This document shows, in pieces, positions 1 through 2,868 of a stretch of 64,000 nucleotides of DNA. The DNA is from Flavobacteriales bacterium. GTDB taxonomy: Bacteria > Bacteroidota > Bacteroidia > UBA10329. The position numbers and the translations under genes were made by a program. Every line of letters starts with the position of its first letter. Within the stretch, counting starts at the first letter, position 1. A model generated the notes under the pieces. It was not told the origin of the DNA. It worked only from the letters and a program-made list of their open reading frames with translations, and made no database searches. The stretch is from contig WGMW01000020.1 in the NCBI GenBank assembly GCA_016124845.1, positions 1 through 64,000 on the forward strand. The letters run 5' to 3'.

Positions 1-71
1 GACCATATATGGGCCATTTTAAGCCCCTGTCCGGCCCCCATTTTCTGAGAAACCGAAAAGGTGTTGCCAAC

Positions 72-92
72 AAAAAATCCGCCTTAGGCGGA
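72..92 (-). terminator. possible leftward terminator hairpin
   Basis: A stem TCCGCC/GGCGGA (78-83 with 87-92) and a 3-base loop is followed, on the minus strand, by a run of six T. This is the form of an intrinsic terminator for leftward transcription. No minus-strand gene is seen to its right, so its client is unknown and it may simply be a palindrome. Confidence 0.3.
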
Positions 93-135
93 CTCATTTG
101 TGATCGTATTCTGACGCGTAAGGGGGTTGCGCATC

Positions 136-262
136 AGTTACAATGCCTAAAAGTATTGCGTGGGAAGGTACGTCAGTCAGTCTCAGTTTCGTTCTGCTAC
201 GTTACCGTATCTCGAAAACTCAGTAGTTTCAAAACGCAATACTTTTAGGCGAACCGTTGGTA
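136..262. repeat. attC-like palindromic repeat, copy 1
   Basis: The outer arms GCCTAAAAGTATTGC (145-159) and GCAATACTTTTAGGC (236-250) are perfect reverse complements. A second inner pairing joins GGTACGT (about 167-173) to ACGTTACC (about 200-207). The right end is GAACC followed by GTTGG (256-260), and the next gene starts 12 bases later. By eye about nine in ten bases match the copy at 2401-2524. The layout (core site, unpaired spacer, long stem, variable centre, about 125 bp) is that of an integron attC site. The left-hand GTTAC in place of CCAAC is imperfect, and the core does not fully fit GTTRRRY. Confidence 0.6.
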
Positions 263-272
263 GCAATTTAAA

Positions 273-752
273 ATGAGAAACATTACCGCAATATTTACAG
301 TACTGCTACTTGCCCAAAAACTATATGGACAAGGATTTATTCCAGCAACCCCAGATACATTGAGCTTAAAAAGCACACAAAAACATCAAAGTTTTGCTGG
401 ATCATTAGGCTACAGGTATCTGAAAAAGTATTACAAGGTCGCATCAGAAAAAGACTCAGTTATCTACTACGCATGGGGAGATTCGAACACCATTTGTTCA
501 TTTCGTCAATCATTTGAGAGAGAAATAGTCTATGAAGTTTGGGAATGTTCAGAAGGAGGAGGAATAAGCGAACAAATAACATTTCCCAAGATGGACAATA
601 ATACTGCGAAAAAATTTGTTGACCTGTTGTTCTACGATAAATGGAACACTTGGGTATCTGACTTTACATACGAACCTGTAGGTCCTGGATGCGACTATAA
701 TATTCAACAGAGAGAAAATAAAACGGTAATTCTCATATACTGTGGATGTTGA
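273..752 (+). CDS. exported protein of unknown function (cassette gene)
   Basis: This is a 159-residue protein I do not recognise. It opens with a clear signal peptide (hydrophobic stretch to about residue 17, then LYGQ), so it is probably secreted or periplasmic. The mature part is polar, carries five cysteines including a terminal CGC, and shows no motif I can name. The ATG sits 12 bases behind the core-like end of one palindromic repeat, and the stop lies about 20 bases before the next repeat. The gene is thus packaged tightly between two repeats, as integron cassette genes are. Its base composition is more AT-rich than the housekeeping genes further right, which fits acquisition by transfer. 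Confidence 0.65.
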   Translation: MRNITAIFTVLLLAQKLYGQGFIPATPDTLSLKSTQKHQSFAGSLGYRYLKKYYKVASEKDSVIYYAWGDSNTICSFRQSFEREIVYEVWECSEGGGISEQITFPKMDNNTAKKFVDLLFYDKWNTWVSDFTYEPVGPGCDYNIQQRENKTVILIYCGC

Positions 753-771
753 AATAAAAATGCCACCAATA

Positions 772-890
772 ACCACCAAACCTAATGTTTGCGACTGTGC
801 GTCATTCGGTCTCAGTTTCGTTCTGCGCTGTCCGTGCATGTCGAAAGGACGGCAGTTTCTAACGCATTATCTTTAGCGGAAAACGTTGGC
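772..890. repeat. attC-like palindromic repeat, copy 2 (diverged)
   Basis: It shares with copies 1 and 3 the central TCGGTCTCAGTTTCGTTCT, then TCGAAA, CAGTTTC and the TTTAGCG...CGTTGG right end (885-889). The left arm is weaker (ACCTAATGTTTGCG against CGCATTATCTTTAGC), so the stem is less perfect. The next gene starts 19 bases after GTTGG. Diverged copies of one repeat separating unrelated genes are what a cassette array would show. Confidence 0.5.
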
Positions 891-908
891 AAACATTAAA
901 AATCGAAA

Positions 909-2318
909 ATGAAAAAAATATTGATGTCGGTAATGCTATGGTCTTGCGGAACTTGTATGGCACAAGACGGAGCCAATGACCTATCCTTTGACCCTGGTTC
1001 TGGAGCTAACGACTATGTCCACGAAATAACCGTTCAACCAGATGGTAAAATACTGGTAGCTGGAGAGTTCACGCAGTTTAATGGAGCCGCTGTAAATCGC
1101 ATAGTCCGTCTAAACTCTGATGGTAGCATTGATGGAACTTTTAATTCAGGGACTGGCGCAGACGGACGAATCAGAGAGTGTGTACTTCAGTCTGATGGCA
1201 AAATTTTAATTGGTGGTGGTTTTTCGAATTACAATGGTGTTGGTAGGCAAGGTATTGCTAGACTGAATGTGGATGGTAGTCTTGATCAAACTTTCGACCC
1301 TGGTTCTGGAGCATTTTCTATCAAAGCGATAGCTATACAACCAGACGGGAAGATGATTATTGGAGGAAGCTTCTGGAGTTACAATGGGACTTCAAGAAAC
1401 AGCGTTGCCAGAATCAACAGTGACGGCAGTTTAGATTTAAGTTTTGGAAGCAGTGTGGGCGGGGCTGATCAAGATGTGGTTAGCATCTGTCTACAAAGCG
1501 ATGGAAAGGTTGTGATAGTAGGTGAGTTCACAACATATGATTTCATCGATCGGAACAACGTAGCTCGACTTAATTCCAACGGAACTCTTGATGCAACATT
1601 TGATCCAGGCTCTGGTGCTGACATAGCTATTCTTACCTGTGCGATACAAAATGACGGTAAGATCTTACTTGGAGGTTTGTTCTATTCTTACAATGGAATT
1701 CAGGTAGAAAACTTAGCTAGAGTAAATTCTGATGGAAGTCTTGATGCCACGTTCTTATCAGGGTCTGGTCCGGATAATGGTGTCGACCAAATTGCTTTGG
1801 ATGACTCTGAAAGAATAATAATCGTGGGTACATTTACCGATTACGATGGCAATACAAGAGTTAAAGTTGCCCGAATACTGGAGAGTGGAACTGCTGACCC
1901 AACGTTCAATCCAGGTACTGGTGCAACAGGCCCTAGCTCTGGTACTGACGCGGTAGCAATTCAAAGTGACGGAAAAATCCTTATTGGGGGCAATTTCACT
2001 TCCTACAATGGGGTTTCGAGAAATGGAATTGCCCGAATACAGTCTTCAATTCCAGTTGGGCAAACGGAGGTAACGGCCTTTGACCAATTGCCCATTGAGT
2101 TTTATCCCAACCCAGTATCCGACATCTTGTATTTAAAGCACAAAGGTACAGCAGGTTTTCAAGTAGACATTTATACATGCCTTGGCAAACTTGTAGAATC
2201 ATTTGCCGATGTCAATAAGATTGATGTTAGCGGATTATCAGACGGAGTATATCTATTGAAGATGCGAAACCCAATGACTTCCGTAGAGACAATAGAGCGG
2301 TTGATAATTAGTCCGTAG
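909..2318 (+). CDS. delta-60 repeat beta-propeller protein with T9SS sorting domain
   Basis: This 469-residue secreted protein has a signal peptide ending near TCMAQ (residue 19). About seven repeats of 50-60 residues follow, each running like SFDPGSGA, then a QPDGKILVAGEF-type strand pair, then ARLNSDGSLD. These are delta-60 repeats, thought to fold as beta-propeller blades. The last ~80 residues are a type A T9SS C-terminal domain (FYPNPVSD near 397-404, then a GVYLLKM strand), which directs export and attachment to the cell surface. No catalytic motif is visible, so binding or adhesion is inferred. The gene lies between attC-like repeats 2 and 3, an unusually large and complete T9SS cargo for a cassette. 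Confidence 0.85.
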   Translation: MKKILMSVMLWSCGTCMAQDGANDLSFDPGSGANDYVHEITVQPDGKILVAGEFTQFNGAAVNRIVRLNSDGSIDGTFNSGTGADGRIRECVLQSDGKILIGGGFSNYNGVGRQGIARLNVDGSLDQTFDPGSGAFSIKAIAIQPDGKMIIGGSFWSYNGTSRNSVARINSDGSLDLSFGSSVGGADQDVVSICLQSDGKVVIVGEFTTYDFIDRNNVARLNSNGTLDATFDPGSGADIAILTCAIQNDGKILLGGLFYSYNGIQVENLARVNSDGSLDATFLSGSGPDNGVDQIALDDSERIIIVGTFTDYDGNTRVKVARILESGTADPTFNPGTGATGPSSGTDAVAIQSDGKILIGGNFTSYNGVSRNGIARIQSSIPVGQTEVTAFDQLPIEFYPNPVSDILYLKHKGTAGFQVDIYTCLGKLVESFADVNKIDVSGLSDGVYLLKMRNPMTSVETIERLIISP

Positions 2319-2400
2319 AAACAAGGTTTAATTTCAGATCGCATGATTTCGACCTTTCGGATAACCAACCATTGGAAACTGAATCAAAAAATAACGTTTT

Positions 2401-2524
2401 CCAACAATGCCTAAAACTATTGCTTGTGACGGTACGTCAGTCGGTCTCAGTTTCGTTCTTCCACGTTACCGTATCTCGAAAACTCAGTAGTTTCAAAACG
2501 CAATACTTTTAGGCGCACCGTTGG
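2401..2524. repeat. attC-like palindromic repeat, copy 3
   Basis: This is the clearest copy. It starts CCAAC (2401-2405) and ends GTTGG (2520-2524). The arms GCCTAAAACTATTGC (2409-2423) and GCAATACTTTTAGGC (2500-2514) pair at 14 of 15 positions. Unpaired spacers AAT and GCACC lie between the outer CCAAC/GTTGG pair and the arms. This R-spacer-L hairpin order is diagnostic of attC sites, although GTTGGCA departs from the GTTRRRY consensus. The next gene begins 21 bases further on. Confidence 0.65.
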
Positions 2525-2545
2525 CAAACATTAAACACCTGAATA

Positions 2546-2725
2546 ATGAAGCGACATACTAAAACTGGATTAATCACATTTCTTGTAGCACTGGTGATGA
2601 TGTCGGCAGAAACCATCTATCACCATGGGATGGTACCAAGTGAACTGTTGTCACCGTTATGGAGATCATTGGTGACGGGATTGGTTGTAGGCGTAGCCGT
2701 CTACTTCATGGACAAGAAAGATTAA
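2546..2725 (+). CDS. small two-helix membrane protein (cassette gene)
   Basis: A 59-residue reading frame starts with ATG 21 bases after the third repeat and ends with TAA at 2723-2725. It has two hydrophobic segments, TGLITFLVALVMM (about 7-19) and LVTGLVVGVAVYF (about 42-54). A His-His-containing loop lies between them, and the tail is Lys-rich (MDKKD). That predicts a small inner-membrane hairpin protein of unknown role. The evidence for translation is positional: start spacing and strand match the other two cassette-like genes. A palindromic element begins four bases after the stop. Confidence 0.5.
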   Translation: MKRHTKTGLITFLVALVMMSAETIYHHGMVPSELLSPLWRSLVTGLVVGVAVYFMDKKD

Positions 2726-2728
2726 GCC

Positions 2729-2868
2729 TACTCGCTGGCGCGCTTTTGCGGTTGCCCGTGCGCGTCTGTGACGCGTTCATAGGTCATACCAGTAAATAGC
2801 CACCAGGTTTTCAGTTTATTGCAGACAGATCAGGCGGCACGCGTTGCAAACGCGCGCTAACGGAGTGA
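2729..2868. repeat. GC-rich imperfect palindrome, REP-like element
   Basis: The left arm (CTCGCTGGCGCGCTTTTGCG, 2731-2750) matches the reverse complement of the right arm, which covers 2835-2868 and includes GTTGCAAACGCGCGCTAACG. A second CGCGTCTGTGACGCG palindrome lies inside. It is much more GC-rich than the adjacent cassette DNA. The look is of a degenerate REP or mobile-repeat footprint, not an attC site like those upstream. Confidence 0.5.

Follow-up and report, generated by a model that had tools for sequence, protein, structure and literature searches.

Integrons capture genes as cassettes flanked by attC sites, and each attC site of an array takes its R'' arm from the end of one cassette and its R' arm from the start of the next, a full match being formed only in the circular cassette. 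Here we compare with integrons, and with related systems, the first 2725 bases of a 64,000-nt stretch of DNA from a Flavobacteriales bacterium (hereafter the window; the first 64 kb of contig C20 in a genome, G000, of 4.36 Mb and 65 contigs), in which three related repeats alternate with three + strand genes. We consider it highly probable that this region is an integrase-less fragment of a Bacteroidota integron-like cassette array, the cassettes of which would be moved by a family of tyrosine recombinases related to XerA and IntI.

PMC8138268 describes the insertion specific to IntI proteins as essential to the working of integrons. Integrons are reported to be rare in Bacteroidota, the single complete one that IntegronFinder 2.0 names there being in Salinibacter. 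A second described system, recombinase-associated acquired interbacterial defence (rAID), consists of clusters in gut Bacteroidales, the plan of which PMC12247911 gives with reference to earlier work; that source, in the part available to us, names neither integrons nor a cassette mechanism for rAID. Our literature search, the reach of which did not extend to the original rAID paper, found no paper describing Bacteroidota arrays of the kind reported below.

The window array and the pairing of cassette ends

The contig begins at window base 1 and the array stands at its very start. The alternation of three repeats of about 125 bp with three same-strand genes, described in an earlier note on this DNA, was recovered, the 132-nt copies of the repeat family (D1) lying at 140-271, 769-900 and 2404-2535. 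The features are as follows, the crossover positions that bound the cassettes being putative.

1-141, + strand: end of an insertion sequence (IS)-like element, X; its ...GTTAC is joined to AATGCC of repeat copy 1, replacing the R'' arm
142-256, + strand: attC-like repeat copy 1 (subtype A; 132 bits, covariance model R1), without its left arm, which the IS has displaced
257-885, + strand: cassette 1, carrying repeat copy 2; start GTTGGTAGCA, own R'' TGCCACCAAT, 8/10 complementary
273-752, + strand: open reading frame (ORF), 159 aa, with an N-terminal hydrophobic, signal-like segment and no Pfam match
758-889, + strand: attC-like repeat copy 2, subtype B; R'' at about 758-770, R' GTTGG at 885-889 (129 bits)
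886-2520, + strand: cassette 2, carrying repeat copy 3; start GTTGGCAAACATT, own R'' AACGTTTTCCAAC, 11/13 complementary
909-2318, + strand: ORF, 469 aa, with seven DUF5122 beta-propeller repeats and a type IX secretion sorting tail (Por_Secre_tail)
2393-2524, + strand: attC-like repeat copy 3, subtype A, complete; R'' at about 2393-2405, R' GTTGG at 2520-2524 (145 bits)
2521-2725, + strand: cassette 3; start GTTGGCAAACATT; holds a 59-aa hydrophobic ORF at 2546-2725

The crossover closing copy 1 would fall at G256^T257. No attC-like repeat was found after cassette 3 in a scan with the R1 model, and the array therefore ends or is truncated there; an Rfam scan of the window returned RNase P as its sole match. 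The signal-like start of the 159-aa product, the type IX tail of the 469-aa product and the hydrophobicity of the 59-aa product agree with their earlier description as exported or membrane proteins. So does the composition with the claim that the array is AT-richer than its surroundings: positions 256-2725 have 41.4% GC as against 49.5% in the remainder, and 0 of 118 equal-sized windows are lower.

Copies 1 and 3 of the repeat are 90% identical, copy 2 being more distant (62%), and copy 1 contains a perfect 17-bp inverted repeat (145-161 / 234-250). The CCAAC left arm noted earlier for copy 3 reads CCAAT in copy 2 (766-770) and is missing from copy 1, because the IS-like end at 1-141 inserted there. 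A hairpin had been proposed for every copy; DNA folding of copies 1 and 3 is indeed non-random (z -4.6 and -2.8 on the + strand, -4.1 and -4.2 on the - strand), but copy 2, as placed in the array, folds no better than its shuffles (z about 0). Across 15 copies, 10 of the 20 inner stem pairs have changed on both sides, and 83% of stem cells are paired, as against 27-41% in slid controls. The covariance model R1, built from 15 repeat copies, matches the window's own genome at 31 sites, many of them at contig ends and scattered over many loci rather than gathered in one array. Among relatives in the genus it finds 39 in G004, nine in G002, six in G008, two in G003 and one in G005; outside the genus there was one weak match among 50 genomes, and a plasmid search using the repeat gave no match. 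The copies fall into two main subtypes (A and B), with a third in contig C64 (L052); there are also A/B hybrids, and the loops vary in length. Some repeats (L035:3341-3545, L037:764-967, L042, L036) have far longer loops holding nested repeats, and some are hybrids of A and B arms.

Among the evidence for cassettes is a rule of arm pairing, which we tested in four genomes on every one of the 41 blocks that lie between one repeat and the next. Each block starts with GTTGnnnnn[A/C]ATT, and this start pairs over about 10-17 nt with the R'' that closes the same block. Own start and own R'' have a mean local score of 10.85 over the 41 cassettes; other pairs average 6.1, and the R' lying physically next to that R'' gives 6.5. 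In 23 of the 41 cassettes the own start scores highest of all 41 starts, and 20,000 permutations yielded 7.6 at most. In a worked example the start GTTGTGTGTAATTT stands against the reverse complement of its own R'', GTTGTGTGTAGTTT, and the C64 cassette matches at 10/10 positions (GTTGTGCAAC against GTTGCACAAC). In the window, the corresponding comparisons are GTTGGTAGCA with ATTGGTGGCA for cassette 1 and GTTGGCAAACATT with GTTGGAAAACGTT for cassette 2, the second of each pair being the reverse complement of the cassette's own R''. A contiguous chain of eight cassettes obeys the rule in G004:C23; in shuffled sequences the longest chain is one cassette, in a single case two, and none of four control stretches taken from the window exceeds one. 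Because the arm is complementary to the start of its own cassette, the site is complete only in the circular cassette, as in integrons, and DNA folding favours the circular over the array form of the site (-26.4 vs -22.2 kcal/mol; better in 26 of 31, Wilcoxon p 1e-5). We note that in most arrays an A-C mismatch recurs about 10 nt into the outer arm (start ...A[A]TT, reverse complement of R'' ...A[G]TT), which could mark orientation in the manner of the extrahelical bases of attC.

The three window genes have no match elsewhere in the genus, and the relatives carry the repeats beside other genes. This outcome, which the earlier note had named as a check, joins the arm complementarity and the recombinase found at the head of arrays in relatives in supporting its proposal of gene cassettes with attC-type borders.

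The array head in the genus and across Bacteroidia

When first cassettes were traced back by means of the rule, they led to ...GATATCCCCTA|GTTG, where an integrase gene on G004:C45 ends, stop codon included. On G004:C45, G004:C33 and G003:C129 one and the same integrase 3' end, ...GATATCCCCTAG|TTG, has a different cassette behind it each time, and is therefore an insertion point. The last 139 nt of G004:C45 are identical to the start of the array contig G004:C16, the first 10 kb of which hold nine strong repeats; the integrase thus heads the C16 array.

This integrase is a tyrosine recombinase of 426 aa whose nearest solved structures are XerA (4a8e, 5hxy) and IntI4 (2a3v), and which has, in the genus, an N-terminal extension of about 115 aa. 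The integron-integrase model TIGR02249 scores it at 209 bits against a cut-off of 265, in two pieces that flank the IntI-specific insertion; between the flanking blocks lie ~25 residues, as against ~68 in IntI4. In each of the 31 homolog hits tested, the spacing from R to H is 88-91, and at the sequence level the family members checked are without the ~43-residue IntI-specific insertion. In a small tree, thinly sampled, with homologs chosen by similarity and some long branches, the Bacteroidota family forms one group (95/96), which joins with two IntI proteins (96/89) and stands apart from host Xer.

TIGR02249 detected no integron integrase above its cut-off in the nine genus genomes (G000 and eight relatives). 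The two nearest proteins, on G004:C45 and G002:C57, both lie at contig ends, and G004 and G002 are the genomes of the genus in which family members occur; a scan of genome contigs with integrase patterns taken from the N-terminal extension returned the G002 record only. The recombinases of the window's own genome belong to other families, Xer-type in the tree. The expectation of an IntI integrase to the left of the array was consequently not borne out: nothing precedes base 1 on the contig, no integron integrase above the cut-off occurs in the genome, and the recombinase that heads arrays in the relatives is not of the IntI type. Integrase-less arrays begin at short hairpins, for example GGCTATAGGTAAT..ATTACCTTTAGCCAATT|GTTG, which have the L' motif in common with the repeats (L122:2330-2364, L030 and L027 in G000; L114, L113, L116 and L110 in G004) and are possibly secondary attI-like platforms. 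In L148 (G004:C19; 329-517 and about 1490-1630), a degenerate integrase C-terminus is followed by cassettes with another site type, CCGCTAACACGGGTTTGGC...GCCAAGCCGCAAAACGTTATATGCC, which is present also in G307 (L194).

Integrase homologs at E<=1e-62 occur in 66 of 395 Bacteroidia genomes and 45 of 197 genera; many of them stop no more than a few hundred bases short of where the contig ends. Downstream there is often ...CCAATT|GTT or a similar motif, after which the cassette rule applies again. An attI-like site adjoins the integrase gene outside the genus in G355, G262, G391, G228 and Rufibacter. In the complete genome G355, the integrase and its attI-like site are followed by seven contiguous cassettes, each with arms complementary at no fewer than 12 of 13 positions (at least 12/13) and separated by ~120-nt sites, and G262 has a chain of three cassettes. 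Named examples lie on plasmids of Rufibacter tibetensis (NZ_CP012644) and Pontibacter kalidii (NZ_CP111080). From these sequences an integron-like system appears to be widespread in Bacteroidota. Plasmid integrase homologs outside the phylum (H10, H11, H13, H15-H38) adjoin IS91-family transposases or match a gene annotated as TnpF; this is the same superfamily in a different mobile context.

A Parabacteroides distasonis plasmid (NZ_OY725747) carries a recombinase of the family followed by co-oriented genes that include type VI secretion system (T6SS) immunity genes, a layout matching the rAID plan as set out in PMC12247911. All six of its cassettes obey the rule, with the core [AG]TTA and with starts and arms chosen by eye from the intergenic sequence; the start and arm pairs include ATTACCCACGTAG / GTTACCCACGTA and ATTAGTAATCAA / GTTAGTAATCTG. 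In the tree, the P. distasonis rAID recombinase falls inside the Bacteroidota family.

Likeness to known systems, proposed mechanism and competing explanations

The Bacteroidota arrays resemble integrons in their co-oriented cassettes, in a hairpin site with R and L arms and a variable loop, in cassette-specific outer arms completed in the circle, and in an insertion point beside a tyrosine recombinase gene. They differ in a recombinase that lacks the IntI-specific insertion, in an attI-like site placed where the integrase gene ends (in the window's genus, at its stop codon), in outer arms of about 10-17 nt rather than 7, and in a core of GTTG plus variable bases (or [AG]TTA) instead of GTTRRRY, on which point the doubt voiced in the earlier note was justified. 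Measured against the definition of an integron, the arrays have an R'' complementary to the start of its own cassette, and arms and a covarying hairpin without the GTTRRRY core; no protein of the nine genus genomes has the IntI-specific domain (TIGR02249 above cut-off), and an attI beside the integrase gene is found in relatives, not in the window's genome. For clusters of attC sites lacking integrases (CALIN), which call for at least two attC within 4 kb and no integrase, the window offers three non-canonical sites within 2.4 kb and no integrase to the contig end, the contig being cut at base 1. The Vibrio superintegron repeats (VCR) are similar in being repeats of about 120 bp in dozens of copies among AT-rich, mostly unknown genes, and different in having an IntI4-type integrase and in lying in one array, whereas the Bacteroidota repeats are spread over many loci. 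The XerA/IntI-like recombinases termed an 'integron-like subgroup' (PMC8138268) match the present family in nearest structures and in a tree position beside IntI; the ~115-aa N-terminal extension in the genus and the absence of the IntI-specific insertion set the two apart.

With rAID clusters the arrays share a same-family tyrosine recombinase at the head of co-oriented short genes with conserved intergenic motifs, and co-oriented genes with such motifs are found in the window array. The cargo of rAID consists of T6SS immunity genes and its sites are short (~50 nt, core [AG]TTA), whereas the window array encodes exported or membrane proteins. A rAID-type recombinase upstream of the window array is absent from the window's genome. 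Against the rAID description of short immunity genes below 41% GC, the window array stands at 41.4%, includes an ORF of 469 aa and holds no recognised immunity protein.

In the mechanism that we propose, a cassette would comprise usually one gene followed by R''-L''-loop-L'-G, and its ends, the first ~13 nt and R'', would pair in the circle, giving an attC-like hairpin whose outer arms are extended. The enzyme acting on this folded site would be a tyrosine recombinase of the Bacteroidota family, related to XerA/IntI and without the IntI insertion, and the circular cassette would enter the attI-like site at the integrase 3' end, or other cassette sites, so that genes could be inserted, removed and reordered. 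The crossover is placed at or beside G^TT because GTT(G) alone is common to attI, attC and cassettes. The cargo would be mostly short exported or membrane proteins in the window's genus and T6SS immunity genes in gut rAID. What the sequences themselves show is the rule for cassettes together with the family of repeats, the sites, arms and gene order, an array head that bears the integrase in relatives, three different cassettes at one attI and the missing insertion; that recombination takes place, on which strand and at exactly which base, and that such an integrase once served the window array, we infer.

Several observations weigh against this interpretation. No integrase of the Bacteroidota family was found in the window's own genome, which may reflect loss or an assembly gap at a collapsed IS. 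The join of G004:C45 to G004:C16 depends on an identical overlap of contig ends, both window cassettes are weaker-armed (8/10 and 11/13) than most cassettes, and the integrase loci L182 and L196 show no detectable array. Several single attI-to-R'' matches lie within the shuffle range, and as such matches are non-significant in several genomes we rely on the contiguous chains and on G004 and G003.

That the array is a true IntI integron or CALIN, with canonical attC sites and an ordinary IntI outside the assembly, seems to us unlikely. The plan is the same (R''-L''-L'-R', cassette-specific outer arms, a G^TT-like core), the assembly breaks at the repeats, and integrons occur sporadically in Bacteroidota; but the want of any protein above the cut-off in the nine genus genomes, an array-head recombinase without the ~43-residue insertion, an R' of GTTG plus variable bases and arms longer than 7 nt all speak against it. 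We accord the same small likelihood to another enzyme, host XerC/D or a transposase, moving the cassettes with the neighbouring integrase family as a passenger. Such a view would suit a genome with many repeats and recombinases of other families only, yet the genus has three places where the integrase 3' end is itself the insertion point, and other families of the class have the integrase immediately before the first cassette. Least probable of all, and in our judgement scarcely credible, are non-mobile dispersed repeats (of the repetitive extragenic palindrome or miniature inverted-repeat transposable element kind, or terminator hairpins) spread by transposition or homologous recombination. 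The many copies, subtypes, A/B hybrids, IS insertions and strong hairpins would be in keeping with such repeats; left unexplained would be an arm that matches the far and not the near end of its gene block, the shared orientation of repeats and genes, and a recombinase head with a constant insertion point, and the complementarity in arrays of seven and eight cassettes already contradicts this reading.

The integron-like cassette array that we favour is not an integron in the strict sense, since the IntI insertion and the GTTRRRY core are both lacking; in this respect the alternative offered in the earlier note, a non-integron repeat system that moves cassettes, comes nearer. The array nevertheless passes the most specific test for integron-like working that sequence affords, so that the system, contrary to that alternative, appears to follow integron logic. 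A broader proposal, to which we give an even chance, is that of a second kind of integron across Bacteroidota: a distinct recombinase family beside IntI, lacking the attC-binding insertion, would recognise folded sites with extended arms, and the place where its own gene ends would serve as attI. The rAID clusters, together with many of the repeats that lie between genes in the phylum, would then be arrays of this system, which could be a stage that came earlier in the evolution of integrons. A widespread cassette system without the IntI insertion would mean that attC-like recognition has another solution, and a large cassette pool would have escaped tools built on IntI and canonical attC. The immunity arrays of gut rAID would gain a definite mode of assembly, and the origin of integrons would become testable with one recombinase assay.

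Insertion sequences in the repeats and minor observations

Two related IS-like elements, X and Y, with ends ...GCATCAGTTAC and ...GCAACGGGCAC, terminate at one point inside R'' (AAC / ACCC-AATG) at twelve contig ends of the window's genome, and a Y-like end occupies the same point of a repeat in G008. X/Y ends were located at window 1-141 and at L039-L041, L045, L037, L038, L028, L032, L033, L036, L052 and L123. The end of X is identical over 126-141 nt at the contig ends C24 and C14 (both ends) and diverged (81-83%) at C57 and C6; where readable, it is joined to the repeat arm as AAC|ACCC or AAC|AATG. The flanks, pieced together from different copies, fit an apparent 4-bp duplication (ACCC or AATG). 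Only the ends of X and Y are assembled, their transposases lying outside the assembly, and a search of the window's genome for IS110 (Transposase_20) gave no match. IS1111-attC elements and group IIC introns are known to target attC, and the insertion of X and Y in the repeats parallels both.

On the Rufibacter and Pontibacter plasmids (L202:15647-16705 and L203:11553-12908), genes for IS110-family transposases lie within the cassette arrays, much as IS1111-attC elements sit inside integrons. Just past the window array, at 2881-2913, a 3-nt loop separates the two perfectly matching 15-bp arms of an inverted repeat, AGCGTTGTCAACTTT / AAAGTTGACAACGCT.

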